Under the pieces are notes generated by a model. It had not been told where the DNA came from. It saw only the letters and a list, made by a program, of their open reading frames with translations, and did no database searches. A DNA stretch of 42,765 nt from a virus. The stretch is from positions 1 to 42,765 of IMG/VR virus record IMGVR_UViG_3300037493_003111, one strand, 5' to 3'. This document shows, piece after piece, positions 3,810 to 36,588 of the stretch (position 1 is the first letter of the stretch; every line of letters starts with the position of its first letter). A program made the translations under genes and the position numbers.

Positions 3810-4550
3810 TTGAAATATTTTATAATAGCATCAGGATTTAATTGCGCATCATTTGTGAAATCATGCTATGAATCATTAATTAAATTAGGAAATAATTATG
3901 AGTGGGAAGCAGAATTAATTGATGATGGAAGCACAGATAATTTTGAAACACAAAAGGCATTATTAAATTTGCCAAAAGATAATAGAATAAAAATAAGTTA
4001 TTTCAAAGATAATTTAGGTGCATCACATAGAAGATTTTTTTCAATACAAAATGCAAATTTAAGTGATGAAGATGTAATTATTTTATTAGGATTAGATGAT
4101 CAATTATTACCAAATGCATTAATACAAATTGATGCATATTATTCAACAGGTGTTTGGATGACATACGGAAATTGGATGAATCAATATAAACAATCATTAA
4201 CACCATTGTTTTTACGTTTCAATGATAAAATTCATTTAAACAGAAATTACAGAACAGAGAAATACAGATCAACTGCACCAAATACATTTAAGAAATTTTT
4301 GTTTAATCAAATGAGTGAAGAAGATTTTAAATTTAAAGGTGAATGGATTAAAGCAACAACAGAAAGTAATTTAATGTTTTCCTGTATGGAAATGTGCGGA
4401 AAAGAAAAAATTGGAGTTATTACAAAACCAATTTATTTATACAACAAAGGAAGAATTGACAATGCAAGATCAAGGTTTGGAGAAAAATATCAGAATGAAA
4501 TTTATGCAGATGTAGTTTCAAAACCAAAAAGAAATTTATTAATTAGATGA
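3810..4550 (+). CDS. Family 2-type glycosyltransferase (GT-A fold)
   Basis: A 246-residue protein. The N-terminus follows the GT2 pattern: a beta strand, a helix, then D-D-G-S-T-D at residues 38-43 (nucleotide-sugar binding), K-D-N-L-G-A-S at 66-72, and L-D-D at 95-97 in the position of the metal-binding DxD motif. It would transfer a sugar from a nucleotide sugar to an unknown acceptor. TTG at 3810 is the only sensible start; the next in-frame ATG lies beyond the catalytic core. Its end overlaps the next gene by four bases (ATGA), and it opens a cassette of sugar-transfer and methyl-transfer genes inside the tail region. The composition returns to the low-CG style of the phage. Confidence 0.85.
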   Translation: MKYFIIASGFNCASFVKSCYESLIKLGNNYEWEAELIDDGSTDNFETQKALLNLPKDNRIKISYFKDNLGASHRRFFSIQNANLSDEDVIILLGLDDQLLPNALIQIDAYYSTGVWMTYGNWMNQYKQSLTPLFLRFNDKIHLNRNYRTEKYRSTAPNTFKKFLFNQMSEEDFKFKGEWIKATTESNLMFSCMEMCGKEKIGVITKPIYLYNKGRIDNARSRFGEKYQNEIYADVVSKPKRNLLIR

Positions 4551-5461
4551 AAGTAATTTTTATTTCACATCAGGATTATGCAAACTTTTCATTTGATAAA
4601 AGTGAATCATTAAAATTATTTGGTGTTGATGCTGAATCATTCGTTTATAAAAAGCATCCATTTGGATATTCAGAACAAGCAAAAGTTGTTGATGAAACGG
4701 GAATGAAAAAACAAATTGCAGAAGCAGATGTAATTCATGTAATGCATTCATGTGGAACAATGTGGGATTTAGTAAAAGATACAGGAAAAAAAATTTATGT
4801 TTGGCATACAGGAACACGATACAGAACAGAACCTGAAAAACATAATTCACGATGGAATCCAATTATTGAAAAATCAATTTATGCATTAGGAGAATTTGAA
4901 AATCTTGGATGCAAAAACGGAGAATATTTTTCAATTACAATTAATACAGATAAAATAAAATTTGTTTCAAGCAATAATTCTAAAATAACATTTGGACATT
5001 TTCCAAGTAATCCGCAGGTAAAAGGAACAATGACAATTACAAGAACATTATCAGAAGTAAACCGCATAAGATTTAGAAAATTTGAACAAAATCTTTCTGT
5101 AAAAAGATGTGATTTTAATTCACAGTTAAAAAGGATTGCAGGAATTGATGTTTACATTGAGATGTGCGCGACAAGGCAAGGAACAAAGCCTTATGGATCA
5201 TTTGGAACAACTGCATTAGAATGTTCTGCAATGGGCAAACCTACAATTACAAATATGCTTTGGGAAAATGTTTACAAAAAGTATTATGGTGAACATAAAT
5301 TAATTATTGCAAATTCAAGTAGTGATTTAAAAAAAAGATTAATTGAATTTTGTGATATGAATTTAAATGAATTAAAAATAATGAGTGAAGAAGTTAGAAA
5401 TTTTGTTGAAGAAAAACATTCATATCAAGCAACAGGAAAAAGATTATTAAATTATTTATGA
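4547..5461 (+). CDS. Glycosyltransferase, GT-B / family 4-like
   Basis: A 304-residue protein. A Rossmann-like N-terminal half (strand K-V-I-F-I-S, later A-D-V-I-H-V-M-H) is followed by a C-terminal nucleotide-sugar-binding half with P-Y-G-S-F-G-T-T-A-L-E-C and A-M-G-K-P-T-I at about residues 214-235, the usual GT-4 acidic loop with the conserved glutamate. A short helical C-terminus follows. It overlaps the previous and next genes by four bases each, so translation of the cassette is probably coupled. The acceptor is unknown. Being slightly shorter than typical cellular GT4 enzymes suits a phage enzyme. Confidence 0.8.
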   Translation: MKVIFISHQDYANFSFDKSESLKLFGVDAESFVYKKHPFGYSEQAKVVDETGMKKQIAEADVIHVMHSCGTMWDLVKDTGKKIYVWHTGTRYRTEPEKHNSRWNPIIEKSIYALGEFENLGCKNGEYFSITINTDKIKFVSSNNSKITFGHFPSNPQVKGTMTITRTLSEVNRIRFRKFEQNLSVKRCDFNSQLKRIAGIDVYIEMCATRQGTKPYGSFGTTALECSAMGKPTITNMLWENVYKKYYGEHKLIIANSSSDLKKRLIEFCDMNLNELKIMSEEVRNFVEEKHSYQATGKRLLNYL

Positions 5462-5571
5462 CAGAAGCAGGGCAATATAATTTTGAACCAAAAGATCCTA
5501 AAAGTGGATGTTTGATTGTTACATTATTTACATTTATTTTTTGGATTACAATTTTATACATCATATCATGA
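5458..5571 (+). CDS. Small single-pass membrane protein
   Basis: A 37-residue ORF: a polar N-terminus (about 17 residues, with P-K-D-P-K-S-G) and then one hydrophobic segment rich in I, L, F and W running to the C-terminus. It starts with the ATG of an ATGA overlap with the upstream glycosyltransferase and ends in another ATGA overlap with the methyltransferase, so it fits exactly between two coupled genes. That phasing is the main support for it being real. It might tether or assist the glycosylation enzymes at the membrane, which is speculation. Confidence 0.6.
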   Translation: MTEAGQYNFEPKDPKSGCLIVTLFTFIFWITILYIIS

Positions 5572-6125
5572 CAAAAGAAGAATACATAAATAAGTTGCGT
5601 AAATTTAATTCAACAGAAAAATATATTTTAGAATTAGATTTTTTATTGGGATTAATACAACCATATCCAAATAATAAAATAATTGATTACGGTTGCGGTG
5701 TTGGTACTGCGGTTAAATATTACAGGAACATAACGCAAAGAATTTCGTTTATGGGTTTTGACATTGTTGATCATGTATCAACAGAAAAAACAAAAACACC
5801 TTTATGGTTTATTCAGGAATTAGAAAATTGTGATGTTGTTTATTTTTTACATTCATTTGCACATATTCCAAATATTTCAAAAGTATTATTAGAGATGCGC
5901 GAGAAAGTAAAAAAGAAAGTAATTGTAATTACACCAAATGCTCAATGGTTACGATTGCAGATAAATGAAAATTATATTCCTGATCCAACAGTTGTGATGC
6001 ATTATACACATGATGAATTAGTAGAAACATTTGAAGATGTTGGATTTAAAATTTCCATTAGCGGACAGTTTGGAATCCGCGCAAACAATCAACACGAAAG
6101 ATTATTTTTAGTTGCAAAGCCATGA
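5568..6125 (+). CDS. SAM-dependent methyltransferase, class I
   Basis: A 185-residue protein with motif I D-Y-G-C-G-V-G-T at residues 40-47, followed by an acidic strand end (G-F-D-I-V) and a motif-IV-like segment (C-D-V-V-Y-F-L-H-S) typical of small class I methyltransferases, then V-I-V-I-T-P-N. The start chosen is the ATG at 5568 because it overlaps the stop of the small membrane gene (ATGA); an upstream TTG at 5508 would run through that gene. Next to three glycosyltransferases it may methylate a sugar, as in O-methylated glycans. A DNA target is unlikely because there is no (D/N)PPY motif. Confidence 0.8.
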   Translation: MTKEEYINKLRKFNSTEKYILELDFLLGLIQPYPNNKIIDYGCGVGTAVKYYRNITQRISFMGFDIVDHVSTEKTKTPLWFIQELENCDVVYFLHSFAHIPNISKVLLEMREKVKKKVIVITPNAQWLRLQINENYIPDPTVVMHYTHDELVETFEDVGFKISISGQFGIRANNQHERLFLVAKP

Positions 6126-6883
6126 CAACAATCGTTTATCCTTACCTGCATAGATTATCACAAGGTGATGAATTAAAGTATTCAATTAGATCATTATGTA
6201 AATATGCCAAATTTGATTTTGATATTGTTTTAGTTGGTGATAAACCTGATTGGTATAATGGTAAATTTATTCCAACAACACCAATTAGAAATAAAAGATT
6301 TACACGCGCATTTGATATTGCAAAAAAATTAGAAATCATTTGTGAATCAAAAATAATTTCAGAAAATTTTATTTACATGTATGATGATCAGTATTTCATT
6401 AATGATGTTTATTTATCTGATTTAGAAAAATCAATTTCAATAAACGAAATCAAAGAAAGAAGAAAACCAAATGTAGGTTCAGAAGTTTGGCGCGAATTAA
6501 TGAGCAGAACAGTTGATGCATTAGTAAGTAATGGAAATGATATTGTTTACAATTATGAAACACATTTACCAAGAACATTAAATAAAAAAAAATTGAAATT
6601 AATTATTGATGCTTATGATTTGCATCATGTTCCATTACTATTTAATACTCTTTATTTTAATGAATATTTTGAACAACCTGAAATCATTCTTGAAAAAGAA
6701 AACAAAATTAAAGCAGGTATTTACAAAGCAATGACAAGTGATGAAATCCGTAATTTATGCGCAAGTAAATTAATAATGAATCATGGAGAAAAAGCATTTA
6801 ATCATCCGTTAAAATTATTTTTAAAGAATACATACCATAAAATTTGTAAATTTGAATTAAATTATAATAAAGATGATAAATAA
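6122..6883 (+). CDS. Stealth-type glycosyl/sugar-phosphate transferase-like protein
   Basis: A 253-residue protein. It opens with a GT-A-like strand-helix (V-Y-P-Y-L-H-R, then D-F-D-I-V-L-V-G-D), and residues 85-93 read Y-M-Y-D-D-Q-Y-F-I, closely matching the metal-binding conserved region 2 of Stealth proteins (hexose-1-phosphate transferases of capsule synthesis), followed by H-H-V-P near residue 168, reminiscent of region 3. It overlaps the upstream methyltransferase by four bases and the downstream structural gene by eleven. It probably transfers a sugar or sugar-phosphate within the same pathway as the two upstream transferases. Family placement is from motif resemblance only. Confidence 0.65.
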   Translation: MTTIVYPYLHRLSQGDELKYSIRSLCKYAKFDFDIVLVGDKPDWYNGKFIPTTPIRNKRFTRAFDIAKKLEIICESKIISENFIYMYDDQYFINDVYLSDLEKSISINEIKERRKPNVGSEVWRELMSRTVDALVSNGNDIVYNYETHLPRTLNKKKLKLIIDAYDLHHVPLLFNTLYFNEYFEQPEIILEKENKIKAGIYKAMTSDEIRNLCASKLIMNHGEKAFNHPLKLFLKNTYHKICKFELNYNKDDK

Positions 6884-9908: not shown

Positions 9909-10328
9909 ATGAAAGATTACACAATTGGAAGAAAAACAACAGTCAAACTTTGTGAAAATTTAGATGAAATTTCAATCAAGCGGTGGACTGCGGTTCAACA
10001 GTACATGATTACAAAACAAACAGGATCTGATTTAGTTGATGTAAAAGATTTTTGGACAAAATTTTGTCAATCATTTGATGCAAATTCACCTTCACAAATG
10101 TTTATTCACGCGCATGATTGGGTGCATGGTTTATCATTGGTGGAACGTGGTGATAATCCTGATCAATTTATTTTTGGATTAATTACATTGGAAGAAGGTG
10201 AAGAAATGCATTCTTATGAACCTGATTTTTTGCGTGAAAAATTAAAGAGATTTAATAAAGCAGGATTAACACAGGGGGAAGTGAAACGAGAAGTAGAAAA
10301 TTTTATTTTAGGAATTCTCGCATCTTAG
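9909..10328 (+). CDS. Tail assembly chaperone, short form (gpG-like)
   Basis: A 139-residue protein two genes upstream of the tape measure, the classical place of lambda G. It begins with a short strand, then helices (K-R-W-T-A-V-Q-Q-Y-M) and an acidic C-terminal half. It ends with TAG at 10326-10328, downstream of a slippery heptamer, so a fraction of ribosomes should move into the -1 frame and make the longer form ending at 10699. Chaperones of this type coat the tape measure during tail assembly and are absent from virions. Name is by position and frameshift architecture rather than sequence identity. Confidence 0.75.
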   Translation: MKDYTIGRKTTVKLCENLDEISIKRWTAVQQYMITKQTGSDLVDVKDFWTKFCQSFDANSPSQMFIHAHDWVHGLSLVERGDNPDQFIFGLITLEEGEEMHSYEPDFLREKLKRFNKAGLTQGEVKREVENFILGILAS

Positions 10329-10699
10329 AAAATAAATTTCCTGATGAATACGAGAATTCCGAAATCGTTTACGAATCACAACAAATAGCATTATTACATG
10401 CTGATTTTATTTTATCAAATCCAAATAGAATAAACAAGGCATTGAAATTAAAAACCATTGAAAAAAGATCTAAAGATTTACAAAAGATTTTAGAAAAAAA
10501 ATCATTTACATTAAGTAAATCAATTATTTCATTGTGGGAAAACTTTGAAGAATTATGTATGACATTATCAAGGTTAGATGGTAAAATGACATTTACAGAA
10601 ATTGAATTATTATCTGCGTGGAATTTTTACAGATTAAAATCCTACCTTAGCAAAATAAATAAACCGCAACCTAAAAATGGAACGCAAGAAAACGAATGA
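9909..10699 (+). CDS. Tail assembly chaperone, -1 frameshift form (gpGT-like)
   Basis: The -1 frame is open from 10259 to a TGA ending at 10699. Shifting at A-AAT-TTT (10298-10304) joins 132 residues of the short form to 131 residues of the second frame, giving about 263 residues. The extension continues F-Y-F-R-N-S-R-I-L-E-N-K-F-P and ends in basic helices (K-L-K-T-I-E-K-R-S-K-D-L). The only independent start in this second frame would be a TTG at 10442 with nothing upstream to support it, so the region is better read as the T extension. The extension's last 23 bases overlap the next gene. Confidence 0.75.
10298..10304 (+). promoter_or_regulatory. -1 frameshift slippery heptamer A-AAT-TTT
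   Basis: In the zero frame the codons are AAT (10299-10301) and TTT (10302-10304), preceded by A, so X-XXY-YYZ holds with X=A, Y=T, Z=T. After slipping, both tRNAs can re-pair as AAA and TTT. The site sits near the end of the short chaperone frame, inside the overlap with the -1 frame. Confidence 0.75.
10311..10360 (+). promoter_or_regulatory. Frameshift-stimulating stem-loop
   Basis: GGAATTCTCG (10311-10320) pairs perfectly with CGAGAATTCC (10351-10360), ten Watson-Crick pairs with a 30-base loop. It begins six bases after the slippery heptamer, the usual spacer for a -1 stimulator, and is unusually G+C-containing for this genome. The short form's TAG lies within the loop. Confidence 0.8.
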
Positions 10700-10940: not shown

Positions 10941-13900
10941 TATAAAATTTCTTTTAAATTTTGCACAAGGCGGTGATCTTAAAAAATCAATTGCAGATTT
11001 AAAAACATTGAATGCAGAATTGCAAAAAAATCAAGGATTGCAAAAGCAATTTGGTGATTCATTTTCCACATCTTCAAAATCAGTTACAAATTCATTGGAT
11101 CAAATATCTGCGAAAACAAAACAGATGAATGATGCAATGAAAACAACAAGTGATGCAAAAGAAATTGCAAAGTTGGTTGCTGAAATTGATAAGTTGCGCA
11201 GAGAATATGATAAATTAAGCCAATCAACAACACAGATGTTGATTGCAAATCAAAAGTTAGCGCAGGAAGAAGCAAAGACAAGGCAACAAAATTCAAAAGC
11301 AATTAAAGAAGAAAATAAATTACGTGATGATGCAATAAAAAAACAACAGAAAGAAGAAAAAGAAAGAACAAAATTGAATTCCATTTATGCAATGGAATCA
11401 AAAAGATTAAATGATTTAAGAAAAAAATATAAAGATTTAGCATTATCAGAAAATGCATCATCAAAAGAAACAAGAAAATTATTAAATGAAATTACTGCAT
11501 TAGATAATAAATTAAAAACAGTTGATGCAAGTGTTGGACAATTCCAAAGAAATGTTGGAAATTATGGTTCTGCAATGAAGGGATTTGGCACACAAATAAT
11601 GAGTGCGATAGGTGTTGGATCATTTATTACTGTTGTTGCTGATGCAGTCAAAACAAATGCGGAATTTGAGCAATCATTATCAGATTTATCAGCAATCACA
11701 GGTGCAACAGGAAAAGATTTAGAATTTTTCAGAGAAAGTGCAATTGCACAAACATTATCTGTTGAAGGTTCGACTGCATCCGCGCGTGATATGTTAGAAG
11801 CATATAAATTAATTGGAAGTGCAAAGCCTGAATTATTAGAAAATTCAGAAGCATTAGATTTAGTTGCGCAAAAATCTTTATTATTAGCAGATGCATCAGG
11901 ATTAGAATTACCTGATGCGGTTACACGTTTGACAGATGCAATGAATCAATTTGGTGCAGGTTCTGATCAAGCAGGAAAATTTGTTGATGTATTGGCATCG
12001 GGTGCAAAATATGGATCAGCAGAAATTCCACAAATCACAGAAGCATTATTAGAATTTGGTGCAGTTGCAAAAAGTTCAAATGTATCAATACAGGAATCAA
12101 CTGCATTGATTGAAGCATTAGCAGAAAAAGGAATTAAAGGAAGTGAAGCAGGAACAAAATTAAGAAATGTTTTAGTTTCATTGAGTGCATCAAAAGGTTT
12201 ATCAAAACAAGCGCAGGAATCATTTACAAGATTAGGAATTGATACGGATATTTTATCTGATAAAACATTATCACTTGATACACGTTTACGCGAATTATCA
12301 AAAGCAAAAGATGATGATGTTGCATTATTAAAAATATTTGGAAAAGAAAATATAGTTGCCGCGAAAACGGTATTAATGCAAACAGATAGAATAAAAGATT
12401 TAACAGAAGCAGTTGATGAAAATGGTGTTGCACAAGAACAGGCATCAATTAGAACAGATACATTAGCAGGTGAGTGGAAAAAACTTGGAAATGCGTGGGA
12501 TTCTGAGATGCTAAAAATTGGTGGTTCATCAAGTGGATTAAAAGATATTATAAAAACAATTCGTGAAAATTTAGGATTAATAATTAAGTCAGTTGTAAAC
12601 TTAGCAAAAGCATTTGCAATTTTTAAAACAGGTCAATTAGCAATGAAATTATTTTCATCTGCAACACAATTTGCAACAACTTCATTTTCTAAATTAAACG
12701 CAACAATGAAAGCAAATGTAATTGGATTGGTTGCAGTTGCGGTTTATGAATTATTAGATGCATTAAGTGTTTTTGAAACGAGAGCAGACATATTAGAAAA
12801 AAGATTAGGCAAAGTAAAAGACAAATCAGTTTTATATGAATCTTTTTTAAATGCAAAAAATAAAAAAGACAAAGATGAATTTAAAAAAAGAATTGATGAA
12901 TTAGATAAACAAGCAGAGAAAGAAACACAGTTATTGGAAGCAGGTGGAGAAGATGCAAAAAAGGTTCAAGAAAGAATTAATAAAGAGAAATTGGCAGAAC
13001 TTGGTGCATATAGAGATAAGGTAACTATGACCTATTTAATGCAACAAAAAGAAATTAAGAAAATTGATGAATTATTAGCATCAAGTAAATTTGCAACACA
13101 GGAAGGAGCAGGTGCACCATCTAATGCAGATGCTAAAAGACATGAAGATTTTATTGATAATTTGGAAGCAGAAAAACTTGCATATCAAAGAAGTAATATA
13201 GAATTAGCAAAAGAGAGGAAAGGAGCAATAGCAGAAACATTAAGAATTGGTCAGGAAATGACTGTTGCAAATAAAAAAGAAGTTACTCAACAAACCAATG
13301 ATGTAAAAACTGCAACAAAAGAACAAATTGCAAACCATAAGCAATTAGCATTAGAAAGAGAAAGATTAGCATTAGATTTAAAAAGATATTTAGAAGATTT
13401 AAATGCAGAAAATATTGAAGACGAAAGAAAAGAAGCATTAGAATTTGAAAGATTAAAATCAGAAAGAGAATTAGAAGATGCAAGGGCAAAATATGAAAAA
13501 TTAGGAACATTAACAGAAGAACAAACAATACAAAAAAATAAAATAATAGAGCAGTTGGAGAAACTGCATGTAAATAGAAAAGCAGAAATAAATAAAAAGT
13601 TTGATGATGAAGCATACAAACGTGAGAGAGAAAAATTAGAAAAATTAAATGAATTAAGAAATCTTGAATTAGAAACGCAGGAGTTTTATTATTCTGAATT
13701 TTTAGAAGATGCTTTTAAATCACGCGAAGATTTGCGTGAAGAATATGCAAATGCAGAAACAGAAGAAGAAAGAAAACGTATTGAAGAAAATTTTGAATTT
13801 AATCAGGAAGCAATAGAAGAAGCATTAGCATCTGAATATGATTTGAATGTTTCTGCAATTGAAAAACAAAGAGATTTTGAATTAACTGAAAAAGATTTGG

Positions 13901-29030: not shown

Positions 29031-29933
29031 ATGAACACAAATCAAATTACAACCAAATCTTTTTTTGAAAAAGATAATGTGAAACAAAAATTCGCTGAAA
29101 TCTTAGGAAAAAAATCAACTGCATTTATTACATCAGTAATGCAAATTGCATCGCAGAATGAAATGTTATCAAAAGCAGATCCAATTTCAATTTATAATTC
29201 TGCAATTTTATCTGCAACATTAGATTTACCATTGAATAATAATTTAGGTTTTGCATACATCATTCCATTCAATAATCGACAACCTGATGGATCAACAAAA
29301 GTTGTAGCACAGTTTCAAATTGGATATAAAGGATTCATTCAGTTAGCGCAGAGAAGTGGATTATTTAAAACAATTTCATCAACACCGATTTACGAAGGAC
29401 AAATAAAAAATCATAATCCACTAACAGGAATTGAATTTGATTTTACTGTTAAATCTGATAAGGTAATTGGTTACGCATCATATTTTGCATTGTTAAATGG
29501 ATTTGAAAAAACACTTTATTTAACTGTTGAAGAATTAAAAAAACATGGTGCAAAATTTTCAAAAACATTTAATAATAGAAATGGTTTATGGAATTCTGAT
29601 TTTGATTCAATGGCAACAAAAACAGTTATTAAATTACTGCTTTCAAAATATGCACCATTATCAATTGAGATGCGCAAAGCAATTACAACAGATCAAGCAG
29701 TAATAAATGATGAAGATGCAATTGATATTACTTATGTTGATAATGAACAGGAAATTTTGGATCATGAAAAAGTAAGCGAAAGAAAGGAAGCAGAAAGAAT
29801 TGTTGTATTTATTGAGAAAGCAAAAAATTTAGATGAATTAAGTGTTGTTGAAGAACATTTGCAGGATGATTTGCAGAGAGAATTATACAATAAGAAAAAA
29901 GAAGAATTGAAAACAAAATCAGAAAAAAAATAA
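29031..29933 (+). CDS. recT: RecT-family single-strand annealing protein
   Basis: A 300-residue protein with the RecT pattern: S-K-A-D-P-I-S-I-Y-N-S-A-I-L-S-A and D-L-P-L-N-N-N-L-G-F-A-Y-I-I-P-F at about residues 48-84, F-Q-I-G-Y-K-G-F-I-Q-L-A-Q-R-S-G at 98-113, G-Y-A-S-Y-F-A-L, and W-N-S-D-F-D-S-M-A-T-K-T-V-I-K. The last 60 residues are a charged helical tail. It anneals complementary single strands during phage recombination, with the YqaJ-like exonuclease as its partner. Its leader uses an A-run and GCC instead of AACAACC. Confidence 0.92.
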   Translation: MNTNQITTKSFFEKDNVKQKFAEILGKKSTAFITSVMQIASQNEMLSKADPISIYNSAILSATLDLPLNNNLGFAYIIPFNNRQPDGSTKVVAQFQIGYKGFIQLAQRSGLFKTISSTPIYEGQIKNHNPLTGIEFDFTVKSDKVIGYASYFALLNGFEKTLYLTVEELKKHGAKFSKTFNNRNGLWNSDFDSMATKTVIKLLLSKYAPLSIEMRKAITTDQAVINDEDAIDITYVDNEQEILDHEKVSERKEAERIVVFIEKAKNLDELSVVEEHLQDDLQRELYNKKKEELKTKSEKK

Positions 29934-34336: not shown

Positions 34337-34471
34337 ATGCCTTACGCATCCAAAAAACAACAAAAATATTTTCATACAAAAGAAGGAATGAAAAAAGTAG
34401 GTATGAAAGTAGTAAAGGAATTTGATCAGGAATCAAAAGGTAAAACAATTCCGAAAAAAATAAAAAAATGA
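34337..34471 (+). CDS. Small basic phage protein (M-P-Y-x-S-K-x-Q-Q type)
   Basis: A 44-residue protein starting M-P-Y-A-S-K-K-Q-Q-K-Y-F-H, a pattern seen at the start of many tiny phage proteins of unknown function, followed by K-V-V-K-E-F-D-Q-E-S-K-G-K and a lysine-rich end. It ends in a four-base overlap with the ParB-like gene, so the two are coupled. Confidence 0.7.
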   Translation: MPYASKKQQKYFHTKEGMKKVGMKVVKEFDQESKGKTIPKKIKK

Positions 34472-35082
34472 AAATGAATACAATGCAAATTGAATTAGTT
34501 GAAATTGAGAAAGTGAAAACAAATCCAAATAATCCGCGTATTATTAAGGATGATAAATTTAAAAAATTAGTAAAATCAATTCAGGAATTTCCTAAGATGC
34601 TTGAAATTAGACCAATTGTTGTTAATGATCAGATGATTGTATTAGGTGGAAATATGAGATTGAAAGCGTGTATTGAAGCAGGATTAAAAAAAATTCATGT
34701 GATTAAAGCGAATACGTTATCAGAAGAACAACAGAAAGAATTTATAATAAAAGACAATGTTGGATTTGGTGAGTGGGATTGGGAAATGATAACAAATGAA
34801 TGGGGTGCAGAAACATTATCAGATTGGGGTTTGGATGTTGGTGGTTTTGATTTAGATAGTGATGAATTAACAACTGATTTTAGTTTGCCTGATGGAGACA
34901 AATCACCATTTCAGCAAATAACTTTTACACTTGCAAATGAACAAGCGGATCAGATTAAAAACGCAATAGCAGATATTAAGGAAACGGAAGAATATAAGTA
35001 TGTTGAAACAATGGGAAATGAAAATAGCAATGGAAATGCTTTATATTTAATTATTATGCAATGGAAAGAGAATACAAAATAA
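34468..35082 (+). CDS. ParB-like nuclease-domain protein
   Basis: A 204-residue protein. Residues 7-90 carry the ParB/Srx-type pattern: N-P-N-N-P-R at 19-24, K-L-V-K-S-I-Q-E-F, R-P-I-V-V-N at 48-53, V-L-G-G-N-M-R-L-K-A at 58-67. In phages this domain usually precedes a DNA methyltransferase domain; here it stands alone, followed by an acidic middle and a C-terminal strand-helix. The next gene, a Mom-family protein, begins 22 bases before its end, so the ParB-like protein may guide or assist DNA modification, binding DNA or a nucleotide. Confidence 0.8.
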   Translation: MKMNTMQIELVEIEKVKTNPNNPRIIKDDKFKKLVKSIQEFPKMLEIRPIVVNDQMIVLGGNMRLKACIEAGLKKIHVIKANTLSEEQQKEFIIKDNVGFGEWDWEMITNEWGAETLSDWGLDVGGFDLDSDELTTDFSLPDGDKSPFQQITFTLANEQADQIKNAIADIKETEEYKYVETMGNENSNGNALYLIIMQWKENTK

Positions 35083-35750
35083 ACGAACAATTAAAAAATG
35101 TATTAGTTAAAGTTATAGATAGTAAAGTTGCAAAAGAATATACTATTAAAAACCATTACATGAAAACATTTCCTATTCCTAAAGTTTGTTTTGGAGTATT
35201 TTATAATAAAAGATTACATGGAGTTTTAACATTTGGATTATCTACATCAACTAAACAAAAATTACAAAAAATAATACCAAATATAGAAGATGGTGAATTT
35301 ATAGAAATGCAAAGAATGAATATATCTGATATACTTGGTAACAATGCAGAAAGTTTTGTGCTTGGTAAAGTTTATGAATTATTTAAAAAAAATACAAAAA
35401 TAAAAATCATTTTAACACATGCAGGTGGATGTAAAAATGATTGTGGCATTGTTTATCAATCATCATCTTGGATGTATTTTGGAAAAGAAAAATGCGATGA
35501 TTTTTATTTAACTGAAAATGGAGAATATAAAAATATAATTGCACCAATGCGTTTTGGTAGAGTTCCAAAAGGAATAAAAGGTGGACAAGCAATAGGAGAA
35601 GCATTATTTGGTTCGGGTAAAATAATAAATTCTTTTAGATATTTATATTTATATCCTTTAAATAAAGGATTAAGGTCTTTTTTATCTAAAAAAGAACAAC
35701 AATATCCAAAAGATAGTTTAAATTTTAGAAAAAACCAAGAATGGATTTAA
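35061..35750 (+). CDS. Mom-family DNA modification protein, paralogue 1
   Basis: A 229-residue protein of the GNAT-like Mom type: V-K-V-I-D-S-K-V-A-K-E-Y-x-x-K-N-H-Y at 16-33, F-G-V-F-Y-N-K-R-L-H-G-V-L-T-F-G at 44-59, E-M-Q-R-M near 76, and G-I-V-Y-Q-S-S-S-W near 129-137 in place of the second paralogue's G-T-I-Y-R-A-S-G-F. Mom of phage Mu converts adenine N6 to a carbamoylmethyl form that blocks restriction. The C-terminal 60 residues are basic. It ends four bases before a tRNA-like element. The two paralogues are clearly diverged. Confidence 0.75.
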   Translation: MEREYKINEQLKNVLVKVIDSKVAKEYTIKNHYMKTFPIPKVCFGVFYNKRLHGVLTFGLSTSTKQKLQKIIPNIEDGEFIEMQRMNISDILGNNAESFVLGKVYELFKKNTKIKIILTHAGGCKNDCGIVYQSSSWMYFGKEKCDDFYLTENGEYKNIIAPMRFGRVPKGIKGGQAIGEALFGSGKIINSFRYLYLYPLNKGLRSFLSKKEQQYPKDSLNFRKNQEWI

Positions 35751-35754
35751 AAAT

Positions 35755-35804
35755 GGGGATAACCAATAGGGGTTTTATAGTTAGTTCGAACCTAACTATC
35801 TCCA
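35755..35804 (+). other. Minimal tRNA-like element A (acceptor plus T-arm)
   Basis: GGGGATA (35755-35761) can pair with TATCTCC (35797-35803), seven pairs with one wobble. Directly inside is a perfect T-arm: GTTAG (35780-35784), T-loop TTCGAAC (35785-35791), CTAAC (35792-35796). Only 18 bases fill the place of the D and anticodon arms, with a possible short AACC/GGTT hairpin. The spacing from T-loop to the end is that of a tRNA. An alternative eight-base pairing (35711-35718 with 35794-35801, followed by CCA) competes with the T-stem. It may be a relic, a mini tRNA-like structure or chance. Confidence 0.4.
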
Positions 35805-35814
35805 CAAAATAAAT

Positions 35815-36588
35815 ATGGGCAGAGCAAAAGAAATAATAGTTAAAGTAATACCATCAAAGGTTGCTAATGAGTTTGTGAAAAAAAACCACTATTCAGGTAA
35901 AGTAGTTCCAAATAGTAATTTACATTTTGGTTGTTTTTTAGATGATAAATTGCATGGAGTGATGAGTTATGGAAGTCCAATAAATAAAAAAGGATCAATT
36001 AATTTAGTTGAAAATACGGGTTGGAATGAAATGTTAGAACTAAATAGAATGGCTTTCGATGATTATTTGCCTAAATATTCTGAAAGCAGATGTATTGCAA
36101 TAAGTATTAAGTTAATTAAAAAAAACGCACCACAAATAAAATGGATTTTAAGTTTTTCAGATGGTACTCAATGCGGTGATGGTACTATTTACAGAGCGAG
36201 TGGTTTTAAATTAGTAGGTATAGCAAAAAGCGGACAAGTTTTTAAATTTAATAATGAAGTTTTACATGGAAAAATATTGTGGGATAGATGCTTAGTAACA
36301 GGATGGACTGTTTCAGATAAAGAGATGCAAAATTTAAGAGATAAAGGAAATACAATAGAAAGATTAATTGGCAATCAATTAAAATATATTTATTTAATTG
36401 ACAAAAATTGTAAAATAACCTTACCAATTTTACCATTTAGTAAAATAGATGAGTTAGGAGCAGGAATGTATAAGGGAAAAAAAATATCTTTGAATGATAG
36501 GAAGCAACAAGCGAGAGAAGTTAATGTGGATAAACGCAATACATCCTGTATTGAAATAGGCGGTTCGAGTCCGACCTTCTCGCTCTAA
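35815..36588 (+). CDS. Mom-family DNA modification protein, paralogue 2
   Basis: A 257-residue protein: V-K-V-I-P-S-K-V-A-N-E-F-V-K-K-N-H-Y-S-G-K at 9-29, L-H-F-G-C-F-L-D-D-K-L-H-G-V-M at 36-50, E-L-N-R-M-A-F-D-D near 79-87, and S-D-G-T-Q-C-G-D-G-T-I-Y-R-A-S-G-F near 116-132, matching Mom-type adenine modification proteins. Later P-F-S-K-I-D-E-L-G-A-G-M-Y-K-G marks the end of the conserved part. The last 25 or so residues are translated from a tRNA-like sequence (element B), giving the odd terminus G-G-S-S-P-T-F-S-L. It would modify adenines in phage DNA to resist restriction. Confidence 0.8.
   Translation: MGRAKEIIVKVIPSKVANEFVKKNHYSGKVVPNSNLHFGCFLDDKLHGVMSYGSPINKKGSINLVENTGWNEMLELNRMAFDDYLPKYSESRCIAISIKLIKKNAPQIKWILSFSDGTQCGDGTIYRASGFKLVGIAKSGQVFKFNNEVLHGKILWDRCLVTGWTVSDKEMQNLRDKGNTIERLIGNQLKYIYLIDKNCKITLPILPFSKIDELGAGMYKGKKISLNDRKQQAREVNVDKRNTSCIEIGGSSPTFSL
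36511..36584 (+). tRNA. tRNA-Gly(TCC)-like cloverleaf, element B, overlapping the Mom gene end
   Basis: Folds on the + strand as: acceptor GCGAGAG (36511-36517) with TTCTCGC (36577-36583), six Watson-Crick pairs plus one wobble; D-arm GTT/AAC (36520-36522, 36533-36535) with GG in its loop; anticodon stem CAATA/TATTG (36537-36541, 36549-36553) with seven-base loop CATCCTG; five-base variable region; T-arm GGCGG/CCGACC with one bulged A and loop TTCGAGT (36564-36570); discriminator T at 36584. Anticodon TCC, T73, G1:C72, C2:G71 and C35-C36 are glycine features. Oddities: A at positions 8 and 33 instead of T, no encoded CCA. It may be non-translating or a relic. Confidence 0.55.

Follow-up and report, generated by a model that had tools for sequence, protein, structure and literature searches.

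A predicted -1 ribosomal frameshift with an unusual slippery signal in a putative phage tail assembly chaperone gene

A short ORF near the tape measure gene of the window (the whole 42,765-nucleotide stretch of DNA analysed here, from an uncultivated phage) ends inside an open -1 frame. The locus raises the question of whether ribosomes join the two frames into one protein and, if so, by what signal. We consider it very probable, judging from the nucleotide sequence, that this putative tail assembly chaperone gene uses a programmed -1 ribosomal frameshift on A-AAT-TTT, aided by a stem-loop. The majority of ribosomes would terminate at the TAG at 10326, and their product would be a short chaperone of 139 aa. 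A minority would be slowed by the 10-bp stem-loop that follows the heptamer after six bases, slip one base back on A-AAT-TTT and read on to 10699; the long chaperone made in this way would have 263 aa. The roles of the two products in tail assembly are taken from lambda gpG/gpGT; on this analogy, many short and few long copies may coat the tape measure and recruit the tail tube protein. We infer the slipping itself, its rate and the chaperone role from the features described below (Table 1).

Table 1. Features of the putative chaperone locus and the neighbouring tape measure gene
Feature	Positions	Strand	Basis
Zero-frame ORF from ATG 9909, putative short chaperone (G-like), 139 aa	9909..10328	+	PHROG 8914 and family HMM matches
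Slippery heptamer A-AAT-TTT (AAATTTT)	10298..10304	+	sequence
Predicted -1-frame extension (T-like half), 131 aa	10304..10699	+	family HMM gain, coding score
Six-base spacer ATTTTA	10305..10310	+	sequence
5' arm of stem, GGAATTCTCG	10311..10320	+	sequence, fold
Zero-frame stop TAG, within loop	10326..10328	+	sequence
3' arm of stem, CGAGAATTCC	10351..10360	+	sequence, fold
Small ORF between chaperone and tape measure, 87 aa	10677-10940		
Tail tape measure protein, 1291 aa	10933..14808	+	PHROG 1533 1.3e-54; Pfam PhageMin_Tail 2.2e-30

Heptamer, spacer and stem-loop

The heptamer, the six-base spacer and the perfect ten-pair stem are present base for base as the initial annotation described them, and the heptamer indeed lies just before the zero-frame stop. 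The zero-frame codons read GAA AAT (10299-10301) TTT (10302-10304) ATT TTA GGA ATT CTC GCA TCT TAG, and the 10-bp stem closes a 30-nt loop that contains the stop. After a slip the A-site codon would again be UUU, and the P-site AAU would re-pair to AAA. The layout is that of a canonical -1 signal, with an X_XXY_YYZ heptamer in the zero frame and a structure about 5-8 nt downstream (here after a 6-nt spacer). Frameshift stimulators usually start 5-8 nt downstream, and an E. coli survey of all heptamers counts R_RR.U_UU.Y heptamers with the notable, shift-prone exceptions (PMC4066793). A search of the literature on AAATTTT as a frameshift site of phage tail genes brought up nothing relevant among the papers listed.

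By itself the heptamer is weak evidence, because this AT-rich genome abounds in canonical heptamers: 211 occur in frame among the 12,278 codon positions of the genes scanned, 20 of them AAATTTT, and the probability of meeting any canonical heptamer by chance within the 23-codon overlap is about 0.33. The structure exceeds chance expectation. The hairpin folds at -18.2 kcal/mol (z -4.4 against dinucleotide shuffles, 0/200 equally stable), the 60 nt beginning 5 nt past the heptamer reach a z of -5.06, and the fold downstream of 10298-10304 is the most stable among all 211 in-frame canonical heptamers. The whole window contains five perfect 10-bp stems that enclose loops of 3-40 nt; the one at the predicted frameshift site has 5/10 G+C, the other four at most 2/10. 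A search for a pseudoknot between the loop and downstream sequence gave pairings no better than those in shuffles.

The stem-loop could instead have nothing to do with frameshifting and be a transcription terminator, or a GAATTC site that is repeated by chance; the heptamer alone would then have to cause the slipping. GAATTC is present in both arms, but the four pairs that flank it match too, the position suits the heptamer, and the + strand has no U-run after the stem, so we regard this explanation as improbable. The combination of AAATTTT and hairpin is known in one genome only; a second was not found.

Reading frames and the encoded family

The -1 frame is open from 10259 to 10699, in agreement with the initial annotation, and a slip would yield a 263-aa fusion whose junction reads ...E-V-E-N-F/Y-F-R-N-S... 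(slash at the junction), with F-Y-F-R-N-S across it as first written. Both halves are homologous to one protein family. The zero-frame half matches PHROG 8914 at positions 1-131 (2.5e-5), which is the first half of the family only, while the match of the fusion spans the family from end to end (2.3e-9, residues 1-252 to 1-247 of 250). Against an HMM of the family from which the window was left out, the zero-frame ORF is recovered at 4e-7, and the fusion scores 43.5 bits versus 25.0 for the first half alone, a score reached by 0/2000 shuffled and 0/1544 unrelated natural second halves. The family alignment runs continuously across the junction, which falls at KKK codons where ten relatives are split by -1 as well.

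These matches uphold the earlier identification as a tail chaperone, as the fusion corresponds to full-length PHROG 8914, a family whose member in Flavobacterium sp. phage 1/32 bears the annotation of a frameshifted tail assembly chaperone. The anatomy is that of lambda-type G/GT genes: the ORFs overlap, and a frameshift towards the end of the first would join them. According to PMC5009743, lambda gpG/gpGT (Xu, Hendrix and Duda) comprises a short and a -1-extended chaperone from one gene near the tape measure. In its sequence the window shows the same layout. Frameshifted tail chaperones are a known kind of gene, and the window gene is a further member, with an ordinary predicted -1 frameshift on an unusual signal.

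Moderate-confidence structure models searched against the PDB, solved tail chaperones included, gave no fold match with E <= 0.001. A fold search of BFVD returned three matches, of 246, 242 and 158 aa, and two of these lengths would fit the products of phage 1/32.

The -1-frame ORF could also be a second gene with a start of its own, TTG 10442, perhaps reached by reinitiation past the zero-frame stop, an alternative that the initial annotation had itself named. The 85-aa ORF from this TTG accounts for 14.3 of the 16.9 bits with which the C-terminal part matches the family, yet it starts 114 bases past the zero-frame stop, and the -1 frame between that stop and TTG 10442 contains no ATG, GTG or TTG. 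The codon use of this stretch (10331-10441) is nevertheless that of a real gene. In the -1 frame it scores 0.328 per codon, a value that lies in the range of in-frame segments and exceeds those of every off-frame segment and of all 38 open off-frame ones; the remaining two frames contain stops and give -0.84 and -1.41. Coding-like codon use ahead of TTG 10442 therefore argues against an independent start, as do the unbroken family match over the junction and the relatives with an A-run at this point, 15 of which read through it as one ORF and 11 of which are split by -1. The 46 residues directly after the junction match the family moderately on their own (equalled by 23/500 and 17/500 shuffles), so it is codon use and the continuous alignment that carry the case. 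On this evidence we judge a separate start very unlikely.

Tape measure and other genes of the window

The chaperone gene was first described as lying just upstream of the tape measure. The two are close, but they are not adjacent genes, since the small 87-aa ORF intervenes. A place shortly upstream of the tape measure is what PHROG 8914 members have. Positions 11365-12615 of the tape measure gene are 48-66% identical to L048, L049, L023 and other phages that have no matching chaperone upstream, which suggests modular exchange of putative tail genes. L023, L029 and L032-L036, whose chaperone genes are laid out differently, were excluded from the comparison. Three of them (L029 4488-5445, L032 4274-5177, L034 3368-4280) encode a short single-ORF protein with an (S/T)I(D/E)ELPIYNW-like motif that overlaps the upstream tail gene in another frame, a layout unlike that of the window.

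A block between the capsid-side and tail genes (3810-6883) codes for a glycosyltransferase of family 2 (Pfam 1.5e-8), for a methyltransferase (1.9e-10) and for a protein resembling Stealth CR2, whose match (2.2e-6) stays below the Pfam cut-off; there is also a weak glycosyltransferase match at 4547-5461. The block is possibly a virion or host surface sugar module. The adjoining genes at 35061-36588 encode two Mom family proteins (Pfam Mom 1.7e-36 and 7.2e-50); beside them, at 34468-35082, is a gene for a ParB-like protein, and a role in DNA modification is possible. A RecT family protein is encoded at 29031-29933 (Pfam 9.1e-44).

Slippage signals in relatives

Close relatives of the window were sought among phage records by DNA and by chaperone, and in single-protein scans, and none was found; a tape-measure scan of 80 loci met this chaperone type in 0 of them. 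A family search of 396 order and 395 phylum genomes around a Gilvibacter genome yielded few matches. The 27 relatives compared, which were drawn from phage records, IMG/VR contigs and bacterial genomes, are not all independent (L022 is close to L028, and L024 to L025). An A9-A11 run occupies the junction codons in 26 of the 27, comprising the 15 single-ORF and 11 split genes mentioned above; the exception, L136, is a distant single-ORF member. The window has AAATTTT here and no A-run of nine or more, which membership of PHROG 8914 does not require. Structure downstream of the run is unremarkable in the 24 A-run relatives that were folded (z -1.4 to +1.5).

A close parallel is phage 1/32 (F132_37/F132_38, KJ018210), which shares with the window the family, the -1 relation, the junction and the position upstream of the tape measure, and whose CDS is annotated as joined and frameshifted. 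It has A10 and no downstream structure (z -0.9), whereas the window has AAATTTT and the strong stem-loop (z -5.06). Fpv5 gp07, tant8-1 gp49 and P2559Y_0014 are full-length homologues of the fusion. Unlike the window, they hold the full-length product in the zero frame; they keep A10-A11 at the junction and would make a shortened product if slippage occurs.

In 12/14 single-ORF loci, no A-run as long as nine occurs anywhere in the retrieved sequence except the run at the junction, although one in four of the remaining lysine codons of these genes is AAG. We read the run as a putative slippage site that is kept for two products, whichever frame holds the long one. The tree implies at least four to five changes between split and single-ORF forms, and a pair that differs in this way, L016 (A10, split) and L018 (A11, single), shares 82% identity. 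Some of these differences in phase could stem from sequencing errors in homopolymers. The window, at about 25% identity, forms a long branch of uncertain placement. The A-run members perhaps rely on RNA polymerase slippage, which works in either frame and would let split and single-ORF forms interconvert freely. By this comparison of sequences, the PHROG 8914 family appears to use mostly homopolymer slippage, and evolution seems to have exchanged one slippage signal for another, the two being a bare A-run and a structured heptamer.

Since several relatives have the full-length protein in a single frame, the window gene might be a broken gene or an assembly indel whose true form is one ORF as in Fpv5 or P2559Y. 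We hold this to be highly unlikely: the frame changes exactly at the conserved slippage position of the family, ten relatives have the same -1 split, the site has just four A's and four T's with no long homopolymer, and it combines an in-frame heptamer and six-base spacer with the strongest downstream fold of 211. A long product made by transcriptional slippage, as proposed for the 26 relatives whose A9-A11 is of a length prone to RNA polymerase slippage, and with a precedent in Thermus dnaX (described in PMC5009743), is hardly credible here, given that the longest homopolymer at the site is four, where about eight or more are expected, and that the hairpin is absent from 24/24 folded A-run relatives.

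Programmed ribosomal frameshifting on A-AAT-TTT thus remains our reading of the window gene. The lambda gpG/gpGT heptamer is of the GGGAAAG type, as against AAATTTT in the window. This comparison with other phages, drawn in the initial annotation, matters less than the contrast with the structureless A-runs of the gene's own family, which is the informative one. We tentatively propose that one Bacteroidota phage chaperone family may use two signals at one codon position, bare A9-A11 in most members and a ribosomal -1 site with stem-loop in the window.

The gene adds a well-supported predicted frameshift gene with an R_RR.U_UU.Y signal and a hairpin, and the family offers a natural comparison of homologous genes that face the same two-product problem, apparently solved by a bare A-run in some and by a structured ribosomal site in others. 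The change of signal within the family is the part worth following up, and dnaX provides the precedent: PMC5009743 describes two products from this one gene, by ribosomal frameshifting in E. coli and by transcriptional slippage in Thermus. Unlike the chaperone, dnaX is a DNA polymerase gene, and the parallel is a proposed one; if true, the two-signal family would be its tail-chaperone counterpart. Many chaperone genes annotated as single ORFs would then make a second, shorter product, and the single-ORF tail chaperones of Flavobacterium and Croceibacter phages with a conserved A10-A11 may hide one.
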